This document shows, piece after piece, positions 5,365-21,623 of a stretch of DNA of 64,000 bases (positions within the stretch are counted from its first letter, which is position 1; every line of letters begins with the position of its first letter). This DNA is from a bacterium. Lineage in GTDB: Bacteria > Sysuimicrobiota > Sysuimicrobiia > Sysuimicrobiales > Segetimicrobiaceae. Below the pieces are notes generated by a model. That model saw nothing but the letters and a program-made list of their open reading frames with translations. It made no database searches and was not told the origin of the DNA. The DNA lies in NCBI GenBank assembly GCA_035308905.1, contig DATGFS010000033.1, forward strand, positions 1 through 64,000, read 5' to 3'. A program made the translations under genes and the position numbers.

Positions 5365-7470
5365 TTAGGGTGGTGCCAGGACATCTATTCCATACAACGG
5401 TGCTCGGTAAATCGCCCCAGAAATGCTTCTCGCACGGAAGTTGGCGCCTCCCTGCGGTTGTGGGAACCACGCCGTGAGGACCGGTACGTCGGGATTGCCG
5501 GTGATATCATAGACGTAGGTTCCGTCAGGTGACTTCGCGTACCAGTAGTTTGAGACGACGAGATATACTTTAGGGTTGATGCTCTGCTGATTGAGGATGT
5601 CCAGAAAATTCACGTTCAGTCCCGCAAGACTTCCGGTCCGTACCAGCTTCGCCGGATCATAAATGAGGAGGCCGGATGCGCCCACGCCGGCGTAGATCCG
5701 ATTCTGGGCGACGACGAGCCCGTCGTGGGTTCCGTTGGTGTTGAACGTGAACGCGTCGCGGTAGAGCAGTCTCGGCGCGGTAGGCGTACTGACATCGACG
5801 GCGACGACGCCAACGTTTTGGCCGAGCGCCCAGACCGCCGTGCCCCGGAGCGCGAGGGCGTTGAGCGGCGCGCTGCCGTAGGTACCGTCGGCCCGCGGCA
5901 CACGGACCGAGCCGACGACCGTCGCCGTGTACGTCCCCGCCGTTGTCACTCCGATCTTGCTGACTGTAATGGTGCCGGTGTCGCCGCCGGAGTACAGGTA
6001 GGTGCCATCGAAGACATCGTCCCATGTGATGCCGATGCTGGGCAGCGGCTGCCAGAAGCTAATGGTCCCTTTTTGGAAGCCGGCAACCACGGGATGCGCC
6101 CCCGGCAGCACGACGCGACCATCGCGAAAGGGCTTCCACCCGCCGTCTACTTGCGTCGCAAAGGGCGTGGAGCTCATGAACGTTCGAGTCGCCGGATTGA
6201 ACGCCTGGATGACGTCATTATCGAAATCGTACACGACGCCGCCGGAATCGACGTAGACGTCGTGCGATTCTCCCGCCGTCGCGACGCGCCCAAGCGCGGT
6301 CGTCGCGTCGCTGGCGACGTTGTACAAGGCAACGCCGAATTCCCAATACGCGACGGCCAGCGTCCGGCCGTCCGGGGACAGGGCAAGCGCGGACGGCGAT
6401 TCCCAATACGGCCGCATGTCGCCGTTGAACGCCTGCACGCTCAATCCTTGGTTCGTCAGTGCCACCGGAGTGCTCTTGCTCACGTCGAAGATCATGAACC
6501 CCGCGCCGCCCAGCGGGTTGACGCGACGGGTCACGGCGTCCACAGACTGATAGTCCACGTACAATCGCGTGCCCGCTGCGTTTACGGCCACGCCGCCGAG
6601 TTGCGGTATCACGGTGACGCCCCTCTGGTTGACGAGGCTTACGGGGAGCGTGACCGGGGCGCCCGTCCAGGACCCGATCAATGTCGGCGAGCCCGGGGCG
6701 CCGACGTTCCAGGCCTGAAGCGTGGCGCCAACCGCGGTCCAGAGGCGCGCCCCGGATGCGGCAATGTTCCAGGCTGGTTGGGCGATGCGTCCGAGGTACG
6801 CCGGTCCTCCCCCTTGCGCGACGTAGATGTAGATCCCACCCGGAATGCCTTTCGATGCGTCCGCGGCGCTCCCGACGTACAGATGCCGTGTGGCCGGGTC
6901 GTATGTCATCGCATAAACTCGGCTCAAGCCATCGGGCACGGAGACGCGGTCCATCACCGTCCCTGTTGACGAGAGCATGACCAGCGAACCGGGTTTGCCC
7001 TCGACGGGGACAAACACGTGGGTCCCGTCCGTGGCGATCGCGTGGCTTGCGCCCACGTTGGTCCCCCAACGGATCGCGAATGTGGCGGGATCGAGGGCCA
7101 CCGTGGCGCTTCCCAGCGACGGTTGGAACACCAGGAGGCCGTTGCGTTGCGCGTCGGCGTACAAGAAGTTCTCGGGTTTTGCCGTCGCGACGATGCTCGG
7201 CGCGGACGGATTGGTGGCGTCGATCTTCACCGCCGGCATGACGCCCTCCTCATTGGCGAGAAACAGCGTCGTGCCGTCGTCGCTCCACGCGACATGCCCC
7301 GCGTTGCCCTGGGCCGTTCGGTAGGATGTCTGTAGCGTCAGTGCGGGGAGGGTCGCGGGCGAGACGGCGGCGCCGCCGCCACCGAGCACGACCGCCATGC
7401 CCGCGGCCGCGGCGATCGCTGCGACGCGGCCCATGCGGCCGCGTTTGTGTAGCGTCTTGGTAGATTCCAT
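5365..7470 (-). CDS. Secreted beta-propeller (LVIVD/YncE-like) protein, copy B
   Basis: 701 residues, paralogous to the gene at 78-2192 along its whole length, with blade strands such as 'WSDDGTTLFLANEEG', 'ASHAIATDGTHVF' and 'MIFDVSKSTP'. The N-terminus (MESTKTLHKRGRMGR, then an Ala/Gly-rich hydrophobic stretch) looks like a signal peptide, so the product is probably exported. No enzyme motif is seen. GAGGGTGG lies just upstream of the ATG on the minus strand. It converges on the glycosyltransferase with a 13-bp gap. With copy A it brackets the sulfatase-fold and glycosyltransferase genes in inverted orientation, consistent with an inverted duplication followed by divergence. The role is unknown. 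Confidence 0.8.
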   Translation of the reverse strand: MESTKTLHKRGRMGRVAAIAAAAGMAVVLGGGGAAVSPATLPALTLQTSYRTAQGNAGHVAWSDDGTTLFLANEEGVMPAVKIDATNPSAPSIVATAKPENFLYADAQRNGLLVFQPSLGSATVALDPATFAIRWGTNVGASHAIATDGTHVFVPVEGKPGSLVMLSSTGTVMDRVSVPDGLSRVYAMTYDPATRHLYVGSAADASKGIPGGIYIYVAQGGGPAYLGRIAQPAWNIAASGARLWTAVGATLQAWNVGAPGSPTLIGSWTGAPVTLPVSLVNQRGVTVIPQLGGVAVNAAGTRLYVDYQSVDAVTRRVNPLGGAGFMIFDVSKSTPVALTNQGLSVQAFNGDMRPYWESPSALALSPDGRTLAVAYWEFGVALYNVASDATTALGRVATAGESHDVYVDSGGVVYDFDNDVIQAFNPATRTFMSSTPFATQVDGGWKPFRDGRVVLPGAHPVVAGFQKGTISFWQPLPSIGITWDDVFDGTYLYSGGDTGTITVSKIGVTTAGTYTATVVGSVRVPRADGTYGSAPLNALALRGTAVWALGQNVGVVAVDVSTPTAPRLLYRDAFTFNTNGTHDGLVVAQNRIYAGVGASGLLIYDPAKLVRTGSLAGLNVNFLDILNQQSINPKVYLVVSNYWYAKSPDGTYVYDITGNPDVPVLTAWFPQPQGGANFRARSISGAIYRAPLYGIDVLAPP

Positions 7471-9851: not shown

Positions 9852-12056
9852 TTATCCTCCGCTCTGGTCCGCTGATGCTTTGAGCAGGTGGCGCGCGTCG
9901 TCGGCTCCGGGGAAGCTTCCCCCAATCCCGAGCGCCGTGCGCAACTCCCGCCTGGCCTGCGCAAGATTGCCGGTACGATAGTACGCCGCGCCCAGATGGT
10001 AGTGGACGAGCGCGCTATCCGGCCTGCTCCGTACGCCGGCCTGCAGAAGCGGGAGGGCTTGGCCCATCATCCCTTTCTTGTAGTAGACCCAGCCGAGAGT
10101 GTCGGTGATTTCCGGAGAATCCGGCACTGCCGAATGTGCCGCGAGCGCCAGTCGCAGCGCCTTGTCGAGGTCGGCGCCGTCCTGCGCGTAGGACCAAGCC
10201 AGGTTATTCTGCGCCGGCGCCAGCTGCGGGTTGATTCGGAGCGCCTCCTCATAGTCGGTGCGGGCCTTGGCGGTATCGCCCTGCCGGTCGGCGATCATGC
10301 CGAGCATCATGTATCCGGGCGCGTACTGCGGATTCACCCGGACCGCTTCCCGGAACTTGGCGGTCGCCATCGAGTAGGACTTGTCCTGCGCGTACATGGT
10401 CCCGAGCATCACATAGGCCGACAGCGTGTTGGGATCGACCGCGATCGCCTGAAAGTACGCGTCTTCGGCGCGCGTCCGGTCTCCCGCGGCCTGATAGATG
10501 GATCCGAGCAGCGCGTAGAACGCGCCGGTCTTGGGGGTGCGCGCGATCTGTGCCTGCACGCGCTGGAGCGCGAGGCTTCCCCGCTTGGTGTCGATGTAGG
10601 TTTGCGCTTCGGCGGTGAGCGCCGGAACCGAGTCGGGCTGCTGGGCAAGCGCGGTCTCGAACTCGCGAATCGCGTCCTCCGGACGCCCGGCCAGCCGGTA
10701 CGCGGCGCCCAGCCGGAGCAGCATCGGGATATCGTGCGGCACGGCGGTGACCACCCGGCGGTATTGATCAATCGCCTCTGCGTAGTGCCGCTGGCTCACT
10801 AGAAAGTCGCCGATCGTCGCGTGAACCACCGGGCTGTTCGGCGCCACCGATTCCATCGCGCGCAGTTCCGCGGCTGCAGCTTCGGGGTGGCCCTCCTGGA
10901 CGTCGAGTTGCGCCAACGCGAGGCGTGGAGGCAGGGCCGCGGGGTCCAGTTCAGTCGCGCGGACGAACTGCTCCCGCGCCTGCTTACCGTCGTGCTCGGC
11001 AAGGTAGGCGCGACCGAGAAGCAGCCGCGGCACGGCTAATCCGGGTTGGACCGACAACACGAACTGGAACTCCTTGACGGCGGCTGTCGGATCTCCGTCG
11101 GTCAAGAACTGTTGTCCGGCGAGCAGGTGGGCCGTCGGGTCCTGAGGATCGCGCGCCAGAAGTTGCGCCACCTCAGCCTTGGCCTCGGTCCATCGAGCCT
11201 GTCCCATCAGGAGCGTCGCGATCTTCACGCCGGCGGCATCTCCGCCGAACTTGAGAGCCTCTGCCTTGCGGTAGGCTGCGAGCGCGTCGTCGGGTTTCGC
11301 TCGGGCGGCGTTGAGATCCCCAAGCGCGATCAGGAGCGCCGCCTGCTTGGGCATGGTCGCGGACGCGCTAAGGAGTGTCCGTTCCGCGTCGCTCCAGTGA
11401 CCGTGACGGGCCTGGAACTTGGCGAGCGCAATGCTCGCGTCTGGACTTGTCGGAGTCGCCGCAACACCTTGACGGAAGGCCTGTTCTGCCCCGTCGAGGT
11501 CTCCCATGCTCTCCCTGAGCGCTCCCAGAACCGCATAGGCCCCGGCGGGTCGTGGAGTCGCGGCGACGGCCTCCTCGGTTTCGCGAAGTCCGTCGGCGAG
11601 GCGCCCCTCCGCGGCGAAGCTTTGGGCCAGGAGTAGGTGGGCGGCACCGTCATCCGCGTTCTTGGTCAAGACCGCGCGGGCCTGGGTCTCCGCGTCTTGC
11701 GGCCGCTCCAACGCGAGAAGTGCGGTTCCCAGTTGAACATGCGCGTCGAGATTGCTCGGGTCGATTTGCAGGCTCTTGGCGAGCGCGAGCGCGGCCGATC
11801 CGGCGTCGCCGGTCTTCAGGTACGCGACGCCGAGCCTGTAAAAACCGGCGGCGGATCGTGGTCGAAGCAGGATGAGACCGCGCAGCTCCAGGATCGCCTC
11901 CCGGTACTGCTCAGCGGCAAGGGCACGGGTACCCCTGGCCAGGAACCGCGAGGCCCGCGCGTCCGGGCTCTCCCACTGACGCAATCCAAACGCCGCCGCG
12001 ACGACAAGCGCGCCGACGAGCACGAGCGCGATTCGCCTACGCATGAGGCGTGACAC
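9852..12056 (-). CDS. TPR-repeat protein of the exosortase/PEP-CTERM region (PrsT-like)
   Basis: 734 residues. An N-terminal signal or anchor (basic MSRLMRRR, then a hydrophobic segment at about residues 9-24) precedes tandem tetratricopeptide repeats that fill the protein, with recurrent 'AxxxLGxxYxxxGDxxxA' and 'DPxNLxAY' patterns and roughly 18 repeats by eye. Long TPR proteins of this form accompany PEP-CTERM/exosortase loci and may organise polymer export or cell-envelope assembly. A hydrophobic anchor at one end suggests a periplasmic or extracytoplasmic location. It lies directly downstream of a PEP-CTERM gene but behind a strong terminator, so it needs its own promoter. A near-perfect 19-nt palindrome and one copy of the shared 20-nt motif are upstream. 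Confidence 0.85.
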   Translation of the reverse strand: MSRLMRRRIALVLVGALVVAAAFGLRQWESPDARASRFLARGTRALAAEQYREAILELRGLILLRPRSAAGFYRLGVAYLKTGDAGSAALALAKSLQIDPSNLDAHVQLGTALLALERPQDAETQARAVLTKNADDGAAHLLLAQSFAAEGRLADGLRETEEAVAATPRPAGAYAVLGALRESMGDLDGAEQAFRQGVAATPTSPDASIALAKFQARHGHWSDAERTLLSASATMPKQAALLIALGDLNAARAKPDDALAAYRKAEALKFGGDAAGVKIATLLMGQARWTEAKAEVAQLLARDPQDPTAHLLAGQQFLTDGDPTAAVKEFQFVLSVQPGLAVPRLLLGRAYLAEHDGKQAREQFVRATELDPAALPPRLALAQLDVQEGHPEAAAAELRAMESVAPNSPVVHATIGDFLVSQRHYAEAIDQYRRVVTAVPHDIPMLLRLGAAYRLAGRPEDAIREFETALAQQPDSVPALTAEAQTYIDTKRGSLALQRVQAQIARTPKTGAFYALLGSIYQAAGDRTRAEDAYFQAIAVDPNTLSAYVMLGTMYAQDKSYSMATAKFREAVRVNPQYAPGYMMLGMIADRQGDTAKARTDYEEALRINPQLAPAQNNLAWSYAQDGADLDKALRLALAAHSAVPDSPEITDTLGWVYYKKGMMGQALPLLQAGVRSRPDSALVHYHLGAAYYRTGNLAQARRELRTALGIGGSFPGADDARHLLKASADQSGG

Positions 12057-12101: not shown

Positions 12102-12131
12102 ACTAACAGTAGCGCCCCCGGTCTATGACAA

Positions 12132-12151
12132 GCATCCATCGTCTGGTTGAA
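12132..12151 (-). promoter_or_regulatory. Shared 20-nt upstream motif, copy 1
   Basis: Read on the plus strand the copy is GCATCCATCGTCTGGTTGAA; in the direction of transcription it is TTCAACCAGACGATGGATGC. It lies 75 nt upstream of the TPR gene. Two further copies lie at 12972-12991 and 20513-20532, each upstream of a minus-strand gene of the exosortase region. Conserved cores are TTCAA at one end and TGGATG at the other, 8 nt apart. It could be a promoter recognised by an alternative sigma factor or an activator site. Confidence 0.5.
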
Positions 12152-12184
12152 CCGCCCGCATGACTCGGGCAGTTCTTCCCCCAC

Positions 12185-12224
12185 AAAAAGACCCGACCCT
12201 CGCCGCTTCCGGCGAGGGTCGGGT
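12185..12224 (-). terminator. Rho-independent terminator of the first PEP-CTERM gene
   Basis: A perfect 15-bp stem (12191-12205 with 12210-12224) closes a 4-nt loop. On the minus strand it is followed by a CTTTTTG run (12185-12190). It sits 23 bp after the stop codon of the PEP-CTERM gene at 12247 and separates that gene from the TPR gene. Confidence 0.9.
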
Positions 12225-12246
12225 GTCTTCTCGACTGAGCCCTACG

Positions 12247-12882
12247 CTAGGCCGCGTGCCACCGGCGCCGCTGCACGACAAGGCCCAACAGGCCTAGGGC
12301 CCCGGGTCCGAATAGCACCAAGGCACTGGGTTCCGGAGTGACCGCGAGCCCCACATCCACGCTGTTGGCTACGCTGGTGCCGACCAGTACCTTGATCGTC
12401 GGGAAACCGACCGATCCGGTGTCGATGGCCTGCCCGCCGTTAAACTTTGTTGCCGCAAGTGGCGATAGCACCCACGTGCTGTTCGCCATCACGATGGTCG
12501 TTTCAGTCGAGCTGGTGATAATGTTGAGACTGCCGAACGATGTCGCGGTGAAGTTATAACCGGCCCAGGCGCCCGTACCGGTTATCGTGGCCGTGGTGCC
12601 GGCCGCAGTCCCGTTCGTACTGAACGTGAAGTCGAACGGCGACGCGAGGCTGAACTGGGCACCGTTCCAGACGGCGATCCCGCTCGAGCTGTAAGTGGTG
12701 GTTCCGCTCTTGCTCACGACGCCCGTGATCGCTCCGCTGACGCAGGGGGTAGTCGCACTCCCGCTGCTGCAGGAGAAGTCGACGAACGCGCCCGCGTTTG
12801 CGGGAGGGGCCTTCACGCCCAGGAGAATCCCCAGCCCGAGTAGCGCCGCTCCTGCGACAACACCGAACGACAGCAGTTTCAT
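12247..12882 (-). CDS. PEP-CTERM sorting-domain protein 1
   Basis: 211 residues. An N-terminal signal peptide (MKLLSFGVVAGAALLGLGIL, cleavage probably after PPANA) is followed by a Ser/Thr/Gly-rich beta-type domain without recognised catalytic motifs. The C-terminus is a textbook PEP-CTERM signal: 'TPEPSALVLFG', then a Gly/Leu-rich transmembrane stretch, then basic 'VQRRRWHAA'. The exosortase encoded at 13702-14727 should recognise and cleave it. It lies just downstream of epsI and the exosortase on the same strand but after a 145-bp gap holding motif copy 2, so it is probably transcribed separately. It is likely a secreted or surface structural protein tied to the exopolysaccharide. The ligand is unknown. 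Confidence 0.9.
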   Translation of the reverse strand: MKLLSFGVVAGAALLGLGILLGVKAPPANAGAFVDFSCSSGSATTPCVSGAITGVVSKSGTTTYSSSGIAVWNGAQFSLASPFDFTFSTNGTAAGTTATITGTGAWAGYNFTATSFGSLNIITSSTETTIVMANSTWVLSPLAATKFNGGQAIDTGSVGFPTIKVLVGTSVANSVDVGLAVTPEPSALVLFGPGALGLLGLVVQRRRWHAA

Positions 12883-12971
12883 GAATCCTCTCCCGACCGT
12901 TCGGATACTTGCCAGTCCGATTGCACCCGAAATCCCTTTGTAAAGAAGTGTAGCCTAAGTAGATAAAAACA

Positions 12972-12991
12972 CCATCCATCACTGGATTGAA
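12972..12991 (-). promoter_or_regulatory. Shared 20-nt upstream motif, copy 2
   Basis: CCATCCATCACTGGATTGAA on the plus strand, that is TTCAATCCAGTGATGGATGG in the direction of the PEP-CTERM gene, whose start is 89 nt downstream. It keeps the TTCAA and TGGATG cores at the same spacing as copies 1 and 3 but differs in the middle. An AT-rich stretch (GTGTTTTTATCTAC) follows on the minus strand and could be the -10 side of a promoter. Confidence 0.45.
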
Positions 12992-13027
12992 TTTCGCTTG
13001 ACCCGGTAGCGGGCGATGGATTACGGT

Positions 13028-13705
13028 TCATCCCCCGTTCGCGGCCGGGCCGGGGAGTAGCCGACGCAGGGTCGGGAACATCGCTCGCACGAACGCGACC
13101 TCACGCTCGCTTGTCGCCTCGAGCGAACCGCCAATCGGCGCGTTAATCCGGACCAGCGCCTCATCTGTAGCGTGGCGGGTGAAGGCCGTCCAGGCCAGCA
13201 GGCCAATCGCCCGCATCTCGCGCGCGGCGACCTGCCCGTGAATCTGATACCAGTACAGGACTAATTGTTTCTCGTCGCCTTTCTGAATCAGTATTCGGTT
13301 CACCACGATCGCGCCCGGCGCCGCCGCCGGTCCGGACACCGGATCCGCCACAGCGATCGGGATCAGGTCCGAATGCATGATCACCCAACCGGCGCCGGGC
13401 AGGCACACCGCCGGGGAATGGACGCGGGTATCCACGGGCTGGGCGCCATAGTAGGCCACGTAGAACCACAGGCTATCCCGGGCCGCATTCCAGTACTCCC
13501 GCAATAGGTAGTCGTTCACATGCAGGCCGGCAACGACCGCGGGATCGAAGAATTCATCAGATCCCTGCCAGCCGGCGATGCGTATGGGGAATTGCCCGAG
13601 CGGCGCGTTGAGGGCCATCTCGGGCGTCTCGGCGACGGCGCGGACGGCGGCCGCCGTCACGAGCAGTGTGACGATTGCCACGAGCGCCGCCGTGGACCGC
13701 GTCAC
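13028..13705 (-). CDS. epsI: EpsI-type exosortase-associated protein
   Basis: 225 residues, GTG start overlapping the exosortase stop by 4 nt (GTGA), so the two are translationally coupled. One N-terminal membrane segment ('AALVAIVTLLVTAAAVRAVA') precedes an extracytoplasmic domain with the EpsI hallmarks 'LGQFPIRIAGWQGSD', 'YLLREYWN', 'WFYVAYYGAQ', 'HSPAVCLPGAGWVI' and 'VLYWYQIHG'. In many genomes this domain is fused to the C-terminus of the exosortase; here it is a separate gene. EpsI is needed in some methanolan-type exopolysaccharide systems, and its biochemical role is unsettled. An in-frame extension to 13930 is open but lies inside the exosortase gene and is rejected. Confidence 0.9.
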   Translation of the reverse strand: MTRSTAALVAIVTLLVTAAAVRAVAETPEMALNAPLGQFPIRIAGWQGSDEFFDPAVVAGLHVNDYLLREYWNAARDSLWFYVAYYGAQPVDTRVHSPAVCLPGAGWVIMHSDLIPIAVADPVSGPAAAPGAIVVNRILIQKGDEKQLVLYWYQIHGQVAAREMRAIGLLAWTAFTRHATDEALVRINAPIGGSLEATSEREVAFVRAMFPTLRRLLPGPAANGG

Positions 13706-14727
13706 GAGAGCGCTCCGCCCGGTCGCATCCGCGGCAGCAAGCACTCGGTTCCGGCCAGCAATCCGAATGCTACGAGGAAGATGACCCAGCCCGAAAACAT
13801 GTGATAGAAGCCGCGACCGGCCTGCGCACCGAAGAGTTGAACCAAGACCCCCGTGGTCGCGATCCTGGCCGCGTTCGCGATAATCGCGATAGGAATGGCT
13901 GCGAGCGTGAGGGCGAGGCGTTCCTGCCATGTCTTCCGCTTGAGGTAGGCGAAGAAGGCGGCGAGGGCGAGCAGCGCCACGAGCGAGCGGATACCGCTGC
14001 AGGCCTCCGTGACCTCGAGTCGTATTGTCGGCAAATCGATGATGTTGCCGTCGCGCAGCACCGGTACGTTCATGAGATCCAGGGCGGTCGTGGCCGTTCG
14101 AGCCGCCAGCAGTTGGAGCGGAAAGGCGACGATATTGAGGAGCGGCACGGGCAGTGGAATCATGAACAGCAGGTAGGCGAGGGGAAACGCCGCCAACCGG
14201 AACACCTGGGGGCCGTAGAGGAAAGCGACCAGTCCTGCGAGCGAAATGACAAGCGACAGGCGCGACGGGTATCCGAATGTGGCTGCTTGCCCGAGGATGA
14301 ACACGACTGTCCCGGTCAGGAGCAAGACGAAGGCGGCGGGGGCCACGCGCGCGGTGGCTCGCCGGAGCTGGTCGCGTCTCTCCCAGATAAGATACGCTGA
14401 GAGAAACGGGATCAGGAACCCGTGGGACGCGTTATCGTCCGAGCGCCATTGCAGCACGAGGTCCCAAATAGTTCGGGCGTACAGAATAGCCAGCGCGCCG
14501 GCCACACCCGCAACCCACGCGGCAGCCACAGCCTGGCGTCCCCGCGCCGCAGCGGCTCCCGCCCTGAGCGCCGCGAGCTCTCCTCGCACGATGATGCCGA
14601 TACCGGCGCCTCCCCTTCGGCGACCGCCCGGATGCTCGTACCAATACACTGTAGCCAAAACAGCCGCTGCGTTTCCTCCATCATGCGATGGGTTCCGGGG
14701 CGTCTGAGCAGTCACGGCGCCCCCCAT
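13702..14727 (-). CDS. Exosortase (XrtA-like transmembrane cysteine protease)
   Basis: Up to 341 residues, with about eight membrane segments. All three catalytic elements are present: the Cys of 'EACSGIRSL' (about residue 243), the Arg of 'NAARIATTG' and the His of 'GRGFYHMFSGW'. The enzyme sorts PEP-CTERM proteins at the outer face of the inner membrane by cleaving at or near the PEP motif. The first 50 or so residues are low-complexity and lack homology-like character, so the real start may be a GTG near residue 48 ('VRGELAAL'). epsI follows with a 4-nt overlap. Two PEP-CTERM substrates (12247-12882 and 17789-18421) are nearby. The divergent PIG-L gene starts 70 bp away. Confidence 0.94.
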   Translation of the reverse strand: MGGAVTAQTPRNPSHDGGNAAAVLATVYWYEHPGGRRRGGAGIGIIVRGELAALRAGAAAARGRQAVAAAWVAGVAGALAILYARTIWDLVLQWRSDDNASHGFLIPFLSAYLIWERRDQLRRATARVAPAAFVLLLTGTVVFILGQAATFGYPSRLSLVISLAGLVAFLYGPQVFRLAAFPLAYLLFMIPLPVPLLNIVAFPLQLLAARTATTALDLMNVPVLRDGNIIDLPTIRLEVTEACSGIRSLVALLALAAFFAYLKRKTWQERLALTLAAIPIAIIANAARIATTGVLVQLFGAQAGRGFYHMFSGWVIFLVAFGLLAGTECLLPRMRPGGALS

Positions 14728-14797
14728 CTCATTCGATGAATTCCGTCGCTTGATGGAGGGTCGTGCGGCGATCCGAGGCTTATAGTCGGCTTAAATC

Positions 14798-15628
14798 ATG
14801 GCCAAGAGCCCTTCTTTCTTGAACGGCAACGGCCATCGCAGGATGGGCGTGGCCGAGCCACACTCGCCCGCTTCCCGTAACGGGTTTAGCCGGCCGCAGC
14901 CCGAGGCGCGAGTCGCGCGCGAATTCTGGGGGCGGCAGCGGTTGCTCGTGATCGCGCCCCACGCGGACGACGAAGCCTACGGCTGCGCCGGAACGATTGC
15001 CAAGATAAAGGCCTGCGGTGGCCAAGCGTACGTGATCGTCGCGTCGGTCGGCGATTTACAACATTACAACGGAAACGGCAACCGCCGCAGCGTGTCGGCG
15101 AAGACGCGGGCGGCGGAACTCGAGGCGTCGATGCGGCTCCTCGGTGTCGACGGGTATGAGATCCTGTTTACCGACAGCCAATCGCACCTGCGGTTGGATG
15201 CCGTTCCCCAGCGGGATCTCATCGGCAGTCTGGAGCGAGATGCGACCTACGCCCTCGACAAGGTGCGCCCGACGATGGTCATCCTGCCGGCACCCTCATT
15301 CAATCAGGACCACGTCGCCCTATTCACAGCGGGACTGGCCGCCTGCCGGCCGCGCTTGCGCGCACACAAACCGTTCGCGGACCTCGTCCTCGTGAGCGAC
15401 GCCCCCCAGCTGGGGTGGCGCCCCGAGCCGTTCCGGCCCGATTTTTACGTCGACATCAGCGAGTACCTAGGGTTCAAACTCGACGCCCTGGGCTGTCACG
15501 CATCCCAGGTGCGGCACTTTCCGGACCTCGGCAGCCTCCCAGCGCTCGAATCCCTCGCGCGCCTGCGGGGCGCGGAAATCGGCGTGCAGGCGGCCGAGGC
15601 CTATGAGTGTCACCGCATCGTGCTGTGA
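14798..15628 (+). CDS. PIG-L/LmbE-family deacetylase
   Basis: 276 residues. 'LLVIAPHADDEAYGCAGT' holds the zinc-binding PHxDDE motif, with later 'SFNQDHVALF' giving the third metal-ligand region. Members remove N-acetyl groups from amino sugars such as GlcNAc conjugates. About 45 residues of polar sequence precede the domain. The gene overlaps the following DegT aminotransferase by a GTGA junction. The pair suggests synthesis or trimming of an amino sugar for the exopolysaccharide. It diverges from the exosortase gene. The family is firm, the substrate inferred. Confidence 0.88.
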   Translation: MAKSPSFLNGNGHRRMGVAEPHSPASRNGFSRPQPEARVAREFWGRQRLLVIAPHADDEAYGCAGTIAKIKACGGQAYVIVASVGDLQHYNGNGNRRSVSAKTRAAELEASMRLLGVDGYEILFTDSQSHLRLDAVPQRDLIGSLERDATYALDKVRPTMVILPAPSFNQDHVALFTAGLAACRPRLRAHKPFADLVLVSDAPQLGWRPEPFRPDFYVDISEYLGFKLDALGCHASQVRHFPDLGSLPALESLARLRGAEIGVQAAEAYECHRIVL

Positions 15629-16734
15629 TCCCGCATTCGCGCCCGACGATTGAGCAGGCCGACATCGAGGCGGTAACCGATGTGCTTCGTTCTGGTCGGT
15701 TGGTTCAGGGTGAGCAGGTGGCCCGATTCGAGGCCGCCGTCGCCGCGGCGCTGGGCCGGCGCGGCGGCGTGGCGACGAGCTCGGGGACCAGTGCCCTCCA
15801 CTTGGCCCTTCTGGCGCTCGGGGTCGGTCGCGGCGACGAGGTGATCATGCCGTCGTACACATGTGTAGCCGTGTTGCAGGCGGCCCACTACGTCGGCGCG
15901 ACCCCGCGGCTGGCGGAGATCGACCCCGATACCTACAGTCTCGAGCCCGAGGATGTGCGGCGCCGCCTCAGCCGCCGGACACGTGCGATCATCGCGCCGC
16001 ATATGTTCGGGCTGCCGGCCGATGTCACGGCGTTGCGCACGTTCGGCGTTCCGGTAATCGAGGATTGCGCACAGGCGTTTGGGGCGAGCGTGGATGGGCG
16101 GCCGGCGGGAAGCATGGGGACCGTCGCCGTCTGCTCTTTCTATGCGACGAAGGTGCTGGCGACAGGAGAAGGCGGGATGGTGGTCGCCGACTCCGAGGTG
16201 CTGCTCAACAGAATCCGCGATCTCCGTGACTACGACGGGCGCTACGCGCTCGCTGTGCACTACAATTACAAGATGACCGATTTCGCGGCCGCGTTGGGTC
16301 TGAGCCAGCTCCGGCGCCTTCCGGCGTTTCTCGCGAGGCGGCGCGCCCTCGCCGCCCGCTACGATGCGTGTCTGGAGGGTCTGCCGCTTCGGCTCCCGAT
16401 CGCTCCGCCGGGGCGCGGGCACATCTTTCTCCGCTACGTCATTGGAGTCGATCACCCGTCTCGCCTCGCCCGGCGATTGGGTTCGCGAGGAATCGAGAGC
16501 AAACTGCCCGTGTTTCGGCCGCTCCACCACTACTTACGGAGACGAGGCTTTCCCACGACGGATGCGGCCATGCAATCCGCGCTCTCGCTTCCGATCTATC
16601 CGTCCCTGCCCGACGGGGACGTGGACGTGATCGCCGGTGCGGTGCGGGCGGAACTCGCATTGTTGGACGGAGACGCCAGGCAGTCCCTACCGCATGGCAG
16701 CGGTCGCGGCGTGGAAGCGGTTGTCGGTGCGTAG
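15625..16734 (+). CDS. DegT/DnrJ/EryC1 sugar aminotransferase
   Basis: 369 residues from the GTG at 15625, which gives the family-typical start 'IPHSRPTIEQADIEAV' and a GTGA overlap with the PIG-L gene; a GTG at 15607 is in frame and possible. The PLP fold is clear: 'SSGTSALHLALLALGVG', 'MPSYTCVA', 'VIEDCAQAFGA', and the PLP lysine in 'SFYATKVLATGEGG'. Such enzymes transfer an amino group from glutamate to a nucleotide-linked keto-sugar. Together with the deacetylase it points to an amino sugar in the surface polymer. It ends 52 bp from the convergent response regulator gene. Confidence 0.92.
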   Translation: MIPHSRPTIEQADIEAVTDVLRSGRLVQGEQVARFEAAVAAALGRRGGVATSSGTSALHLALLALGVGRGDEVIMPSYTCVAVLQAAHYVGATPRLAEIDPDTYSLEPEDVRRRLSRRTRAIIAPHMFGLPADVTALRTFGVPVIEDCAQAFGASVDGRPAGSMGTVAVCSFYATKVLATGEGGMVVADSEVLLNRIRDLRDYDGRYALAVHYNYKMTDFAAALGLSQLRRLPAFLARRRALAARYDACLEGLPLRLPIAPPGRGHIFLRYVIGVDHPSRLARRLGSRGIESKLPVFRPLHHYLRRRGFPTTDAAMQSALSLPIYPSLPDGDVDVIAGAVRAELALLDGDARQSLPHGSGRGVEAVVGA

Positions 16735-16786
16735 GCGGCCGGGGTCAATTGACCTCGGTGACTCGGCCGACGGCGACAATCCGCGA

Positions 16787-17449
16787 TTATGGCGCGATCT
16801 CGAGGAGTTTTTGCTCGACGGTGACGGCCACCGCCTGGGCCCGGTTGCTCGTGCGGAGCCGGCGGTAGATCGAGCGCAGATGGGTTTTCACCGTGGACTC
16901 CGACAGGAACAGCCGCCGGCCGATCAGCTTGTCGCTGAGGCCGTCCACAAGAGCGGCGAGCACGTCGACCTCTCGCTGTGTCAACCCAAAGACGCGCGCG
17001 GCGTTGCAGATGTCGGCGGCCGGCTTCGCTGTCGAGAAGTACTGCAAGATCTGTTTGGAAATCGTCGGGCTGATCATCGCGCTGCCCGCGTGAATCGCCC
17101 GTATGGCGGCGACGAGGTCGTGAGGGGTGATATCCTTGAGGATGTAACCCGACGCCCCAGCCTCGGCCGCTCTGCGGAACAGTTTTTGGTCGGCGTGGGC
17201 GGTGAGTACGAGCACTGCGGTCTGCGGAAAGCGCTCTCGGATGATTTTCGTGACCGTGGCGCCGTCTTCGCCGTTCATCATCATATCCATGAGCACAAGA
17301 TCCGGCCGCAGCGCCGCGACTCTTTCGACCGCCTGGTGACCGTTGACTGCTTCGCCGACCACTTGGATATCCGGTTCCGGCTTCAGGATGGCCTTGAGCC
17401 CCGACAAGATGATGGTCTGATCATCGGTGATCACCACACGGATCGCCAT
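16787..17449 (-). CDS. NarL/LuxR-type response regulator
   Basis: 220 residues. The receiver domain has acidic residues 9-10 ('TDDQ'), the phospho-acceptor Asp in 'LVLMDMMMNG' (about residue 55), and 'VLTAHA' and 'GYILKD' of the switch region. The C-terminal helix-turn-helix is of the LuxR type, with 'LTQREVDVLAALVDGLSDKLIGRRL' and 'SESTVKTHLRSIYRRL'. It is the only response regulator in the exosortase region. A possible partner is the degenerate NarL-type kinase at 20553-21458, four genes away. Classical PEP-CTERM loci often use a sigma-54-type PrsR regulator instead; that type is absent here. Confidence 0.93.
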   Translation of the reverse strand: MAIRVVITDDQTIILSGLKAILKPEPDIQVVGEAVNGHQAVERVAALRPDLVLMDMMMNGEDGATVTKIIRERFPQTAVLVLTAHADQKLFRRAAEAGASGYILKDITPHDLVAAIRAIHAGSAMISPTISKQILQYFSTAKPAADICNAARVFGLTQREVDVLAALVDGLSDKLIGRRLFLSESTVKTHLRSIYRRLRTSNRAQAVAVTVEQKLLEIAP

Positions 17450-17788
17450 GTCCGTTCACTCGCTCCTAGTTCGTGGTGAAGCGCCGAGCCCGTCGATCGG
17501 TGTGCGTCGACATGCGGCAGTTGTTGCGAGTTGTCGCCCGTGACAGGGGTCAGCTTGTGACTCCACCGCGCGGGTGGAGGCCATATTTATGACACCATCA
17601 TCAGATTTACCTGCCGGTCCTCGAACGGCCAAAATCTCCTAGTATTTTGTTTAACTGTTCGCGTTGTCCGCAGATGCGATCGTATGTTCGGTAGACGCTA
17701 AAATCCATACGAAAGATTGACGACATTTGACGGCTGGGTTTGCTAATTTTGGGTTGTTTGGCTAACGCCAAAGCGCAGGAGTGCGACC
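17450..17788. other. 339-bp divergent intergenic region with two small hairpins
   Basis: This AT-richer gap lies between the response regulator (minus) and the second PEP-CTERM gene (plus). It holds a 7-bp hairpin (17561-17567 with 17573-17579), and a 6-bp hairpin TTTGGC-TAAC-GCCAAA (17757-17772) that ends 4 nt before the AGGAG ribosome-binding site at 17777-17781. The latter could hinder ribosome access to the PEP-CTERM message. No open frame with coding character and no convincing -35/-10 pair were seen. Confidence 0.5.
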
Positions 17789-18421
17789 ATGAACAGGCCT
17801 CAGAAGCGATCGAGGGTCGGTCTGGTGGGTAGATTTCTGGTGGTTCTTGTGCCACTGTTGGTAATCGTAGGCTCGGCGTCAGCCTCGACAATCGACCTGA
17901 CGTACACAAACTTGATGGGCCTGCCGCAGGGCACGATTACCTTCGGTACGGTCGACGTTACTAGCGGCAGCCTTTTGTGGACGGCCGACAGTTTTTCGTT
18001 TGGTGGTATTACCTATACGCCAGTCGGCACGAATGTGCAGTGCTGGGATACGACGACGACTGGAAGAACGGCGTGCACCGCCGACGGTTTCGGCAAGACA
18101 CTAAACACCTTCAGCCTCAGCAACGGTTCATGCACGCCAAATTCCGTCAACGGCAATGGAAAGTTTTGTAACCCTTGGACCGATTTGACGGCCGATACAA
18201 CCGGCGGCTACGTTATGCACGCTAAGTACACCTCATCAAACGGCGGTTCCTGCACGGGATGGTTTGGAAGCTTTGCGCCCAGCGGTCAAACCGGAACCAA
18301 CGGCTGCAACCTCAGCGCCGTTCCGGAGCCGGGAACAGCGTTGCTTGTCGTAACGGCTCTCCCGGGTTTCGTCGGGCTCATCGTGGCGCGTCGTCGGCAG
18401 TTCTTCCGTCCGCACGCTTGA
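17789..18421 (+). CDS. PEP-CTERM sorting-domain protein 2
   Basis: 210 residues with AGGAG 7 nt before the ATG. An N-terminal signal peptide ('LVGRFLVVLVPLLVIVGSASAS') precedes a Gly/Thr/Ser/Asn-rich beta domain that contains six cysteines ('VQCWD', 'RTACTADG', 'GSCTPNS', 'KFCNPW', 'GGSCTGW', 'NGCNLS'), probably disulphide-bonded outside the cell. The tail has the sorting signal 'VPEPGTALLVV', a hydrophobic stretch and 'ARRRQFFRPHA'. It should be processed by the exosortase at 13702-14727. It differs in sequence from PEP-CTERM protein 1 apart from the sorting signal. Confidence 0.9.
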   Translation: MNRPQKRSRVGLVGRFLVVLVPLLVIVGSASASTIDLTYTNLMGLPQGTITFGTVDVTSGSLLWTADSFSFGGITYTPVGTNVQCWDTTTTGRTACTADGFGKTLNTFSLSNGSCTPNSVNGNGKFCNPWTDLTADTTGGYVMHAKYTSSNGGSCTGWFGSFAPSGQTGTNGCNLSAVPEPGTALLVVTALPGFVGLIVARRRQFFRPHA

Positions 18422-18501
18422 ATTTTGAGGAACTCGTCGGATCGGTGCGACAGCGGTCAGGTGGAGGGACAAGACAGCGCCCGGTAGGCTAGAAGGCGGC
18501 G

Positions 18502-19002
18502 ATGAGAGAGAAGGGTCCGTTGATGCCGATCCGGGGGGAGAGCATCGAGGCCGCGCCGCAGGATATCACCGATCTTCTCGTTACGCTAATAGCGATAGAG
18601 ACCCGACTGCTTCGGCTCGTGCGGGCGGGTGATCGAGAAGTCCCGGTTGACGACGTCACGACCGAACTCACGGTGCTGTCTCGTGATCTCAAGCGGTGCT
18701 ACCGGAGGATCGGAGATCTCGCGGAACGCCGGGACCTCGGCTTCACGACGCAGAGGAAAGTGGGCCGCCTGCGGGATCAGTGTATCTGGCTGTACCGAAA
18801 GGCGGTGAGCGAGCGGGCCTTTTTTAGAAAGCTCGTCCTGGAAGCAGGGCTGCGGCGCCTCATTTCCGAGGAAGCGTTCGGCATCTATCAGGAGATACTC
18901 TGGGTAGAAGACGAAGAACGCCGGCTGGGCAAGGATGACGCCTCCGTCGTCGCACTGCTCTCCGCCGAGTCGGAGGTGCCGTCGGTCCCACCGTCCGCCT
19001 GA
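18502..19002 (+). CDS. Conserved-looking helical protein of unknown function
   Basis: 166 residues, mainly helical and charged, with a long central stretch of heptad-like pattern ('DLLVTLIAIETRLLRLVRAG', 'LTVLSRDLKRCYRRIGDLAE'). There is no signal peptide, no membrane segment and no motif I recognise. It lies 80 bp after PEP-CTERM gene 2 on the same strand and converges on the CBS-GGDEF gene, with a shared hairpin between them. A start at the second ATG (residue 8) is also possible. Coding character is good; the function is not known. Confidence 0.65.
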   Translation: MREKGPLMPIRGESIEAAPQDITDLLVTLIAIETRLLRLVRAGDREVPVDDVTTELTVLSRDLKRCYRRIGDLAERRDLGFTTQRKVGRLRDQCIWLYRKAVSERAFFRKLVLEAGLRRLISEEAFGIYQEILWVEDEERRLGKDDASVVALLSAESEVPSVPPSA

Positions 19003-19019
19003 CCGGTGGGCCGGTCAGG
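18998..19019. terminator. Hairpin between convergent genes (probable bidirectional terminator)
   Basis: CCTGACCGG and CCGGTCAGG pair perfectly (9 bp, loop TGGG) between the convergent genes at 18502-19002 and 19025-20341. The left arm includes the stop codon of the upstream gene. No T-run follows on either strand, so efficiency is uncertain. Confidence 0.5.
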
Positions 19020-19024
19020 GGGCG

Positions 19025-20341
19025 TCATTCGGGGACGTGTTTCGCTAGGGTCCGTGCCATTGGCCGATTGAGCGCCGCCAGGATTGCTTTGGTCACCGCG
19101 TGTTCGAGGTCCGGCGCGCGCGCGCTGCCGATTAAGGTGCGCGGTTCGTTTGCGGACCTCGATAACACCGTGACGACCAACCTCTCCATAGACGTGGGAA
19201 CCTCTGTCAATTCCTCCAGTACGTAATTGCCCGCGTCTCCAACCGTCTGCCGGATCGCGTCGAGTGTTGCCTCGGCCACGAGGAACAGCGTGCCTTGGCC
19301 GTGGACGTGGCCGGCGGCGCGTCCTACGCTCTCGCGCTCTCCCAATCTCAGCGCAACCGTGGCCGCACTTCCCCTGTCCTCGGTCTGTAACGTTACGTCC
19401 ATGAGTTGTAGACGCGGCTCCCGTCGCCCGGCCGTCGTGACCGGCTGATCAGCGGGGAGTGCGGCCTTCGTCCCTTCATTCCGTCTGGACGCAGGCTCGG
19501 CAGCCCGCCTGGCCTCCTTTTCGGTTGTGGACGCCAGGCTGGCGAGCGTCAGCAGGTCCTCGACGGTCGTCGCGATGTGTCCCCGCGTCCGCACCTCGGC
19601 GCGACGTCCGCCGGCCACTCCGACACTAGCCGTGACGCGGGGGGGCCCTCCGGCCATGTCACCGGAGATCGCCACCACATCCCGAATCCGCTGTGCCAGT
19701 TCGCGCGCGTCGCCCTCGGGCCGTGTCGTGGCTATGGCAAACTCGTCGCCGCCATATCGGCAAAGCAGGTCGATCCTCTCGTCCACGAGGCTGCCGAGCA
19801 AACTCGCCACGGAGCACAGCATCTCGTCACCGATGACGTGGCCGAGGATCTTGTTCACCGCGCCGAAGCTGTCAAGGTCGATGAACAGCACCATAATCTC
19901 ATGCCCGCGCTCCAACGCCGCCATTGCCCATGCCCGCAGGGCTGTCGACGTCGGCAGACCGGTCAAGGGGTCACTCTGCTGGCTCTGCCTGCGGAGGATC
20001 GCCGTCGCGGAAATTTGGCCGACGATCTTTCCGTCTTCGGCCACCGGCAACACGTCAACCCGATGGCGGGACATGAGGGCGTATGCTTGTAGCAGCGGGA
20101 GTCCTGGCGTCACCGCGACGGCGCCCGGGGTCATGACCTCGGCAACCGGTCGGTACGGCGGCGCGGCGAGCAGTTGTAGCGGGGTGACGATGCCCAGGAT
20201 GCGGTCTGCTTCAACGACCGGCGCCGCCGCCAGGCGCTGTTCTTTGATCAACTTCGCCGCCGCTGCGACGGTGTCGCGGCCGGTCAGTGAAACGGCAGTC
20301 GGCACCATGACGTCCGCGACGATGAAGAAGACGTCGTTCAT
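19025..20341 (-). CDS. CBS-pair plus GGDEF diguanylate cyclase with unusual C-terminal repeats
   Basis: 438 residues. Two N-terminal CBS domains (about residues 8-115; 'VADVMVPTAVSLTGRD' and 'VAEVMTPGAVAVTPGL') are followed by a GGDEF domain with intact 'RYGGDEFAIA' and metal site 'VLFIDLDSFGAVNK', so c-di-GMP synthesis is expected. The residues upstream do not form the RxxD inhibitory site. After a charged linker, two repeats (about residues 320-435) share a beta-strand then 'EATLDAIRQ' or 'KAILAALNR' helix pattern, loosely like the LeuA regulatory domain. CBS domains usually sense adenine nucleotides. It may link c-di-GMP to exopolysaccharide production; the C-terminal assignment is only a suggestion. 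Confidence 0.9.
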   Translation of the reverse strand: MNDVFFIVADVMVPTAVSLTGRDTVAAAAKLIKEQRLAAAPVVEADRILGIVTPLQLLAAPPYRPVAEVMTPGAVAVTPGLPLLQAYALMSRHRVDVLPVAEDGKIVGQISATAILRRQSQQSDPLTGLPTSTALRAWAMAALERGHEIMVLFIDLDSFGAVNKILGHVIGDEMLCSVASLLGSLVDERIDLLCRYGGDEFAIATTRPEGDARELAQRIRDVVAISGDMAGGPPRVTASVGVAGGRRAEVRTRGHIATTVEDLLTLASLASTTEKEARRAAEPASRRNEGTKAALPADQPVTTAGRREPRLQLMDVTLQTEDRGSAATVALRLGERESVGRAAGHVHGQGTLFLVAEATLDAIRQTVGDAGNYVLEELTEVPTSMERLVVTVLSRSANEPRTLIGSARAPDLEHAVTKAILAALNRPMARTLAKHVPE

Positions 20342-20520
20342 CGCGTCACTATCGGTGACGGCCGAGGCGCGGGCGGCGGAAGCACATGAATAGCCGGAAA
20401 CGCGCCAAGCCGACGGAGATGAGCCGGCATCTCAGCACAGGCTCCGCAGTCAGGCACCGTGATCGTCAAACCTTGCCCCACGCCTAAATTTACGCTCGCT
20501 GGTATGATGAAGGCATCCAC
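20338..20520 (-). CDS. Possible 60-residue protein coupled to the GGDEF gene
   Basis: The frame starts at a GTG inside motif copy 3 and its TGA overlaps the GGDEF start codon (ATGA), an arrangement typical of coupled genes here. The product has a CGAC motif ('VPDCGACAEMPAHLRR') and a Pro-rich tail. No Shine-Dalgarno precedes it. If motif copy 3 is a promoter element, this frame would not be translated from that GTG. It is listed as a possibility. Confidence 0.3.
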   Translation of the reverse strand: MDAFIIPASVNLGVGQGLTITVPDCGACAEMPAHLRRLGAFPAIHVLPPPAPRPSPIVTR

Positions 20521-20532
20521 CGTCCGGTTGAA
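20513..20532 (-). promoter_or_regulatory. Shared 20-nt upstream motif, copy 3
   Basis: GCATCCACCGTCCGGTTGAA on the plus strand, nearly identical to copy 1 (17 of 20 positions). In the direction of transcription it reads TTCAACCGGACGGTGGATGC and lies 171 nt upstream of the CBS-GGDEF gene, between that gene and the sensor-kinase-like gene. Downstream of it comes TTCATCATACC. Confidence 0.5.
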
Positions 20533-20552: not shown

Positions 20553-21458
20553 CTACCGGCCTATCCTCCGGCCACCGTGTGCGGTTCTGGCGCGGTGCCG
20601 ACGGTGGTCGAGCGCGACTGGAAGGGCGGCCTTGACGCAAGCTCCCCGCTCGGGATCGTTTGAGGTCTCCAGAGTTCCGCCGAGCGCCTCAGCCAAGTTT
20701 CTCGCCCAGCCTAACTCAGCACTGTTCGAGAGCGTCGCCGGACGACGCCGACACGCGATCCCGTCGCTCACGATCTGCAACGTCGCGAGGCCTCTGCGCT
20801 GCGAGACGACGACCATGACCCGGCGGGTGTTCGATTGTATGACCGCATTCACCAGACGGTCATAGGCGATCGCACCGAGCGCCCACGCGACGGCCAACGG
20901 AAGGTTAGCAAGTACTTTCGCGCTGCGGATCCTCAAGTGAAATCTAACGGGCGTGGTCCGACGAAAATCGGCGATCATGTGTTGGAGCATCGCGGCGAGA
21001 TCAGGGTCTTCCGTCATCACGGAGTGCAGCAGGTAAATGATCGCCCGGACAGACTTCAAGGCGGAACGCGCCGCGACCATCGCCTTCCGCAACGCCGCCC
21101 TGTCGACGAGGCGCCGCCGGCCCCGGCGGACTTCGCAAGACTCCAAGAGCCAGACGGCGGCGGTAAGGCGCTGCGCCGGACCTTGATGCAGGCTATCGGC
21201 AATGACCGACAGTACGTCCTGAGTGCCGGACGAGCGGTTTCGCGCGACACCGGGACGTTCCGCGTGTTTCGAGCGCCGAGGCACAGGGGCTCCTCCCTTG
21301 ATTGGCCGGAGACGCGGCAGCATCGAGACGGTTCCCTTCGCGGCTGTATCCGATCGACCGGCACGTTCGACTGTCGTGAAAATCGCGCCGTGGAGCTCCC
21401 CTCCGTGCCGCACGTGGCCTTTCTCGCTCAGGAGCCGAGGCAGCATTTGGTGCCGCAT
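20553..21458 (-). CDS. Degenerate NarL-type sensor histidine kinase-like protein
   Basis: 301 residues. 'VIADSLHQGPAQRLTAAVWLLE' matches the HisKA_3 dimerisation helix, keeping the His (about residue 91) but with Gln in place of the usual Asp after it. The ATPase half is eroded: 'YDRLVNAVIQSN' keeps the N-box Asn, yet 'IVSDGIACRRRP' lacks a normal DDGxG, and 'RNLAEALGGTLETSNDPERGACVKAALP' resembles the C-terminal part of the fold. No membrane segment or sensor domain is seen. It may be a weak or regulatory kinase for the response regulator at 16787-17449. An internal ATG at residue 46 is an alternative start. Confidence 0.6.
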   Translation of the reverse strand: MRHQMLPRLLSEKGHVRHGGELHGAIFTTVERAGRSDTAAKGTVSMLPRLRPIKGGAPVPRRSKHAERPGVARNRSSGTQDVLSVIADSLHQGPAQRLTAAVWLLESCEVRRGRRRLVDRAALRKAMVAARSALKSVRAIIYLLHSVMTEDPDLAAMLQHMIADFRRTTPVRFHLRIRSAKVLANLPLAVAWALGAIAYDRLVNAVIQSNTRRVMVVVSQRRGLATLQIVSDGIACRRRPATLSNSAELGWARNLAEALGGTLETSNDPERGACVKAALPVALDHRRHRARTAHGGRRIGR

Positions 21459-21623
21459 ATGACCTCGAAACAGCCGTTCGTATGCTGTGCGATGAGCAGG
21501 GGTACACTTAGACTTCCTACCCAGAATCCACCTCTCAGATTTGTATTGCCGATTCGGACTCGATGGGGCGTGCCTCCCCTTGGAGGGTCATGACAGGTCA
21601 GCCGGCCATGTCGGACGAATGAT

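Follow-up and report, generated by a model that had tools for sequence, protein, structure and literature searches.

The 64,000-nt window analysed here (contig DATGFS010000033.1 of assembly GCA_035308905.1, from a bacterium of the Segetimicrobiaceae) contains a PEP-CTERM/exosortase system, with an EpsH-family exosortase, EpsI and PEP-CTERM proteins (PF09721, TIGR02914, TIGR02595). Around these genes lie others for a PrsT-like TPR protein, a PIG-L deacetylase, a DegT-type aminotransferase, a CBS-GGDEF protein, a histidine-kinase-like protein and a response regulator of the NarL/LuxR type (RR). Six upstream regions of this cluster carry an 18-bp imperfect inverted repeat, or dyad, made up of half-sites of the approximate form WTCNNYC separated by a 4-bp spacer (7-4-7; consensus approximately WTCNNYC-N4-GRNNGAW). 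A -10-like hexamer follows 31-32 bp downstream of its centre, and the dyad is very probably an operator shared by these promoters. The sites, their symmetry, spacing and conservation, and their rarity in the genome were all established by computation; the coordinates are collected in the table.

Features of the exosortase cluster (positions in the window; ranks from the strict held-out scan)
Feature	Position	Strand	Remarks
Dyad site 1, TTCAACC-AGAC-GATGGAT	12134-12151	-	before PrsT-like TPR gene; rank 17
-10-like TACTGT, TPR promoter	12106-12111	-	32 nt from dyad centre
Dyad site 2, TTCAATC-CAGT-GATGGAT	12974-12991	-	before PEP-CTERM-like gene 1; rank 14
-10-like TACACT, PEP1 promoter	12947-12952	-	31 nt from dyad centre
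Dyad site 3, TTCAACC-GGAC-GGTGGAT	20515-20532	-	before CBS-GGDEF gene; rank 3; orthologous promoters compared
-10-like TAAATT, CBS-GGDEF promoter	20487-20492	-	
Dyad site 4, ACCCATC-GCAT-GATGGAG	14676-14693	-	exosortase gene; newly found; 0 pattern mismatches; rank 7
-10-like TACAGT, exosortase promoter	14648-14653	-	
Dyad site 5, TTCCGTC-GCTT-GATGGAG	14741-14758	+	PIG-L/DegT genes; newly found; rank 1
-10-like TATAGT, PIG-L/DegT promoter	14781-14786	+	
Dyad site 6, TCCATAC-GAAA-GATTGAC	17704-17721	+	PEP-CTERM gene 2; newly found, weaker; rank 10
-10-like TAATTT, PEP2 promoter	17744-17749	+	
TPR protein, PrsT-like	9852-12056	-	TIGR02917, 288 bits (cut-off 312)
PEP-CTERM-like protein 1	12247-12882	-	C-terminus TPEPSALVLFGPGALGLLGLVVQRRRW; without family match, motif by eye
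EpsI / DUF3485	13028-13930	-	
Exosortase, XrtA/XrtW-like	13702-14727	-	PF09721, 258 bits
PIG-L deacetylase	14798-15628	+	
DegT-type aminotransferase	15607-16734	+	family by eye; beside PIG-L in relatives too
RR, NarL/LuxR-type response regulator	16787-17449	-	receiver + GerE (PF00072, PF00196)
PEP-CTERM protein 2	17789-18421	+	TIGR02595 above cut-off
CBS-GGDEF protein	19025-20341	-	GGDEF motif intact
Histidine-kinase-like protein, MctS/MadS-like	20553-21458	-	weak HisKA_3; candidate partner kinase

Three of the sites had already been noticed by a first-pass annotation, as copies of a 20-nt motif on the minus strand: TTCAACCAGACGATGGATGC (12132-12151, 75 nt before the start codon of the TPR gene), TTCAATCCAGTGATGGATGG (12972-12991, 89 nt before that of PEP-CTERM gene 1) and TTCAACCGGACGGTGGATGC (20513-20532, 171 nt before that of the CBS-GGDEF gene). 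The sequence bears out these coordinates, the strand and the distances. The conserved blocks TTCAA and TGGATG are present in all three copies, separated by 8 nt throughout and not by 8-9, and copies 1 and 3 agree at 18 of 20 positions rather than 17. For the sensor-kinase gene, the weaker version claimed near 21530 (GGTGGATTC) is absent from the matches of every model and is rejected. The idea of a small regulon holds; its size had been underestimated, since six promoters and not three belong to it, including that of the exosortase gene itself.

The resemblance of the copies alone proves little, because by our own estimate a 64-kb stretch should contain hundreds of chance pairs matching at 17 of 20 positions. 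The pattern TTCAA-N7-10-TGGAT, chosen post hoc, occurs 3 times, where 0.07 occurrences are expected (0 of 100 shuffles). In the 4.0-Mb genome, a pattern fitted to the three copies has 3 exact matches and 14 matches with two mismatches, but no match with a single one; outside the window, this genome has no copy with zero or one mismatch. Exact-pattern searches in 61 relatives returned scattered single matches and carried no information, as the half-sites vary from genus to genus. The matrix built from the three copies, as the annotation had advised, gave clear matches only in G022/G019 when run on the clusters of the relatives, and motif discovery was then used.

Palindromic Gibbs sampling on 35 intergenic pieces from this genome and its relatives gave a dyad score of 197, compared with a mean of 70 (standard deviation 5.8, maximum 86) for 20 shuffled sets, a score that is inflated by the relatedness of the sequences and is not proof alone. 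Among the sites that it selected are all three original copies and one, not noticed before, that lies between the exosortase and PIG-L genes. Furthermore, with the sites aligned by dyad centre and in gene orientation, the -10-like hexamer at an offset of 32 nt (31 in two cases) is the best of 65 offsets. This value is reached in 0 of 5000 permutations for all sites, and p = 0.0002 for the relatives only, with near-identical sites removed. The hexamers at this offset include TACTGT, TACACT, TAAATT and TATAGT in this genome. In the relatives, they read GATRAT at four CBS-GGDEF promoters of genus g2, TATACT and TATCCT in G005, TATGAT and TATGGT in G008, and, in single cases, CATTAT (G022) and TAGCAT (G002).

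In a first held-out scan, the model consisted of selected sites from the relatives with the -10 at offset 32. The CBS-GGDEF, PIG-L, PEP1, TPR and exosortase sites were the top five of the window, and the PEP2 site was sixth. Because this genome had taken part when those sites were chosen, the scan was repeated with a strict model, whose dyad was learned in a run without any sequence of this genome. The six sites then rank 1, 3, 7, 10, 14 and 17 among 127,884 window positions, and the combined p, which allows for how long each upstream region is, is about 1e-7. Thus, the copies rise above chance because both motif discovery without this genome and the fixed -10 spacing recover them.

The oriented pattern of dyad, N22 and TANNNT has four zero-mismatch matches in 4.0 Mb, all in this cluster, and its reversed control has none. 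Three further matches have one mismatch. Two of these (C28, C72) lie inside long coding-like frames and are taken as chance, as are other zero-mismatch dyads on C9, C22, C48 and C50 in the same kind of frame. The third, at C80:27669-27713 (dyad C80:27697-27714, TAAAGT), is flanked by an acyl-CoA dehydrogenase gene and the gene for a second, paralogous response regulator (RR2), and is the sole other plausible intergenic match in the genome.

Of the relatives compared, G001 and G002 are of the same genus and G003-G011 of the same family, and the others belong to the order. Exosortase matches are present in 8 of 43 genomes at E < 1e-40, and the element precedes exosortase, TPR, PEP, PIG-L or CBS-GGDEF genes in eight (G001, G002, G003, G005, G006, G008, G011, G022); the TPR genes concerned are PrsT-like. 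The best matches of the combined model lie before TPR, exosortase and PIG-L genes in G008, before PEP and exosortase genes in G005, at the exosortase and the RR/RR2 region in G001, and before two PEP genes and the exosortase gene in G022. G002 has an exosortase site and a weak PIG-L site only. With its sites mostly gone and its exosortase cluster conserved, it is possibly a natural loss of the regulon. CBS-GGDEF orthologues occur in nearly all family genomes. Their upstream regions share a conserved block in genus g2 (AATCCATYCGTTCGRGGGGTGGC ... GATRAT), with related sequences in G001 and G002; used as a stringent regulon probe, the g2 block is confined to that gene in g2 genomes. A scan of named genomes with a single exosortase sequence found one distant Acidobacteriaceae locus, with no convincing site there.

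Some other features of the relatives' clusters were seen along the way. In G005, three copies of a repeat of about 28 nt, GGTTGTCCCGCGCGTACGGCGTCGCAAC, the third degenerate, lie directly upstream of the PEP-CTERM gene (L059, about 5612-5765) at a spacing of about 61 nt, in a CRISPR-like arrangement. In G022, CTCAAACCGGCGGTCCATGG occurs three times at 63-nt spacing, adjoining the exosortase cluster (L060, 7217-7362). G019 has an in-frame TGA within its exosortase match (L061, about 10400-11200), and its second PEP gene (G019:C7:80620-81531) looks truncated compared with G022.

When the -10 hexamer is set at -12 to -7, the dyad centre falls at about -43.5, a class-II position. The site lies over the -35 region, in which nothing resembling TTGACA is seen by eye. 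Transcription would start at about 12099, 12940, 14641, 14793, 17756 and 20480. The open frame of the exosortase is probably over-annotated at its 5' end, its true start probably being the GTG at 14589, since homologues align from about residue 72; the dyad site of this gene falls within the extra 5' part of the annotated frame.

In the mechanism that we propose, the inverted repeat would be the operator of a dimeric activator which, bound over the -35 region, contacts RNA polymerase carrying the housekeeping (sigma-70-type) factor. The six promoters would then be switched on together, so that the sorting enzyme, its substrates, the accessory protein, glycan-type enzymes and a cyclic di-GMP (c-di-GMP) synthase are co-activated; the CBS-GGDEF protein is likely a diguanylate cyclase. 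The activator would most likely be the RR encoded within the cluster or its partner RR2, phosphorylated by a nearby kinase. Taken as a whole, this class-II activation of six genes by RR or RR2 appears probable. What we infer here, beyond the sites themselves, are the transcription starts, activation rather than repression, the identity of the binder and the signal.

The first-pass annotation had left open whether the motif is an activator site for the response regulator or an extracytoplasmic function (ECF) sigma promoter. The former fits: the element is a dyad, its centre lies at about -43.5 when measured from a conserved -10-like hexamer, and it turns up again at the same genes in relatives, the majority of which have orthologues of the response regulator. 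That a NarL-type activator acts on the element is likely; the RR has receiver and LuxR/GerE helix-turn-helix domains, and the operators consist of inverted 7-base half-sites. RR orthologues (at least 190 bits) occur in 7 of 8 exosortase-positive and 4 of 35 exosortase-negative genomes (Fisher p 7e-5, kinship ignored). Across families, the recognition helix of RR (LSESTVKTHLRSIY) hardly varies, consistent with a conserved operator. The genes for RR2, a HisKA_3 kinase and RR are arranged as a divergent module in relatives, with the kinase detected in some genomes and not in all; in G005 and G006, this module adjoins the exosortase. On the basis of phyletic pattern, conserved helix and module context, RR is the main candidate and RR2 its first rival; with modest confidence, we regard RR as the single most likely binder. 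G002 is the exception among the exosortase-positive genomes: it has neither RR nor RR2 orthologues, and its sites are mostly weak or missing.

The alternative that survives best keeps the same operator and regulon and assigns them to another binder: RR2, some other paralogue of the NarL type, or a one-component regulator encoded elsewhere. RR2 tracks the exosortase as well (7 of 8 versus 7 of 35 genomes), its gene lies next to that of RR in divergent orientation in relatives, and the C80 match is close by it in this genome. However, RR is encoded within the cluster and is the better phyletic match, whereas RR2 is on another contig in this genome (C80:27963-28649), so that a different binder seems possible at a clearly lower probability. 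A more speculative variant, which we consider unlikely, is that RR and RR2 bind the operator as a mixed pair. The whole exosortase regulon, c-di-GMP synthase included, would then be under a two-signal switch. A mixed pair would also explain why a two-regulator module is kept in exosortase-bearing genomes and why the half-sites are uneven, with GRTGGA nearly invariant in this genome and the other half loose.

Several observations weigh against activation by RR or RR2 at all six promoters. The relatives are non-independent samples. The CBS-GGDEF dyads of G001 and G002 have no -10 at offset 32, and the exosortase genes of G006 have no convincing sites despite the presence of exosortase and regulators. 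Genus g3 (G004, G007, G009) keeps the RR2-kinase-RR module and G003 has the regulators, with no exosortase match found in these genomes. This genome (G000) contains many NarL-type paralogues, 58 as first-look candidates, any of which could be the binder. The predicted leader of the PIG-L gene is 5 nt only, unless the gene starts downstream. The RR gene of the window has no good dyad site of its own, and the sites at the regulator promoters of relatives lack the -10 spacing. Autoregulation of RR or of the kinase in the window was considered and rejected, the sites being weak and without a -10 at the right distance.

The motif might instead be the -35, with part of the -10, of a promoter for an ECF or other alternative sigma factor, as its promoter-like distance before several co-functional genes and the conserved blocks TTCAA and TGGATG would allow. 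However, the sites are recovered by a dyad model, TAnnnT follows 22 bp downstream at a fixed distance in several genera, and a second conserved block at ECF spacing (16-17 bp) is not seen. The conserved part is one dyad and a distant sigma-70-like -10, without an asymmetric -35/-10 pair, and the ECF proposal is rejected as highly improbable. Least probable of all is that three similar 20-mers were simply selected by eye from 64 kb, where similar pairs are common and the triple alone is modestly unusual, in view of the held-out ranks, the fixed -10 spacing, the presence of the element at the same genes in relatives and its restriction to this cluster within 4 Mb.

In Proteobacteria, a common box with a sigma-54 site lies upstream of PEP-CTERM genes and is matched by PrsK/PrsR/PrsT; according to its authors, the box was found in Proteobacteria only (PMC1569441, Haft et al. 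2006). One such gene, pepA, has been shown to be RpoN-dependent (PMC9850573). The cluster described here resembles that regulon in its two-component system and in the cis-element common to its PEP-CTERM genes; its TPR protein, which scores below the family cut-off, may be of the PrsT type and is likewise encoded near exosortase and exopolysaccharide-type genes. The PrsK/PrsR regulon is characterized by the NtrC-like PrsR, a sigma-54 -24 GG / -12 GC promoter and an activator box about 63 nt further upstream. Here, in contrast, the candidate regulator is of the NarL/LuxR type, the dyad abuts a promoter that resembles the sigma-70 type, and the site is also present at the CBS-GGDEF gene and at the exosortase gene itself. 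The lack of sigma-54 sites, already remarked on in the first-pass annotation, holds: in the six upstream regions, the best match to a -24/-12 promoter has 3-4 mismatches in 11 positions, no better than background. Instead of an NtrC-like PrsR, the cluster encodes a receiver-GerE regulator, the genome outside the window not having been searched for PrsR.

In design, the site is related to those of NarL, whose inverted 7-base elements are separated by a 2-bp spacer (7-2-7) and which can activate from -44.5, as at E. coli ogt (PMC7419079). Inverted 7-base half-sites, a NarL-family regulator and a site beside or over the -35 are common to the NarL promoters (ogt, yeaR) and the present ones; the predicted operator differs in its 4-bp spacer, half-site sequence and genes. 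No exosortase regulon of this type was found in the open literature, which is weak evidence of novelty.

The regulon proposed here would be the counterpart, independent of sigma-54, of the proteobacterial PrsK/PrsR PEP-CTERM regulon, the setting in which regulation of exosortase/PEP-CTERM systems has so far been described, via sigma-54. It would extend such regulation to another lineage and to a different class of regulator and promoter, in a form that can be tested, with one candidate regulator and six transcription starts predicted at exact positions. Furthermore, the exosortase gene would be controlled together with its substrates, and the system would be tied to a probable diguanylate cyclase.

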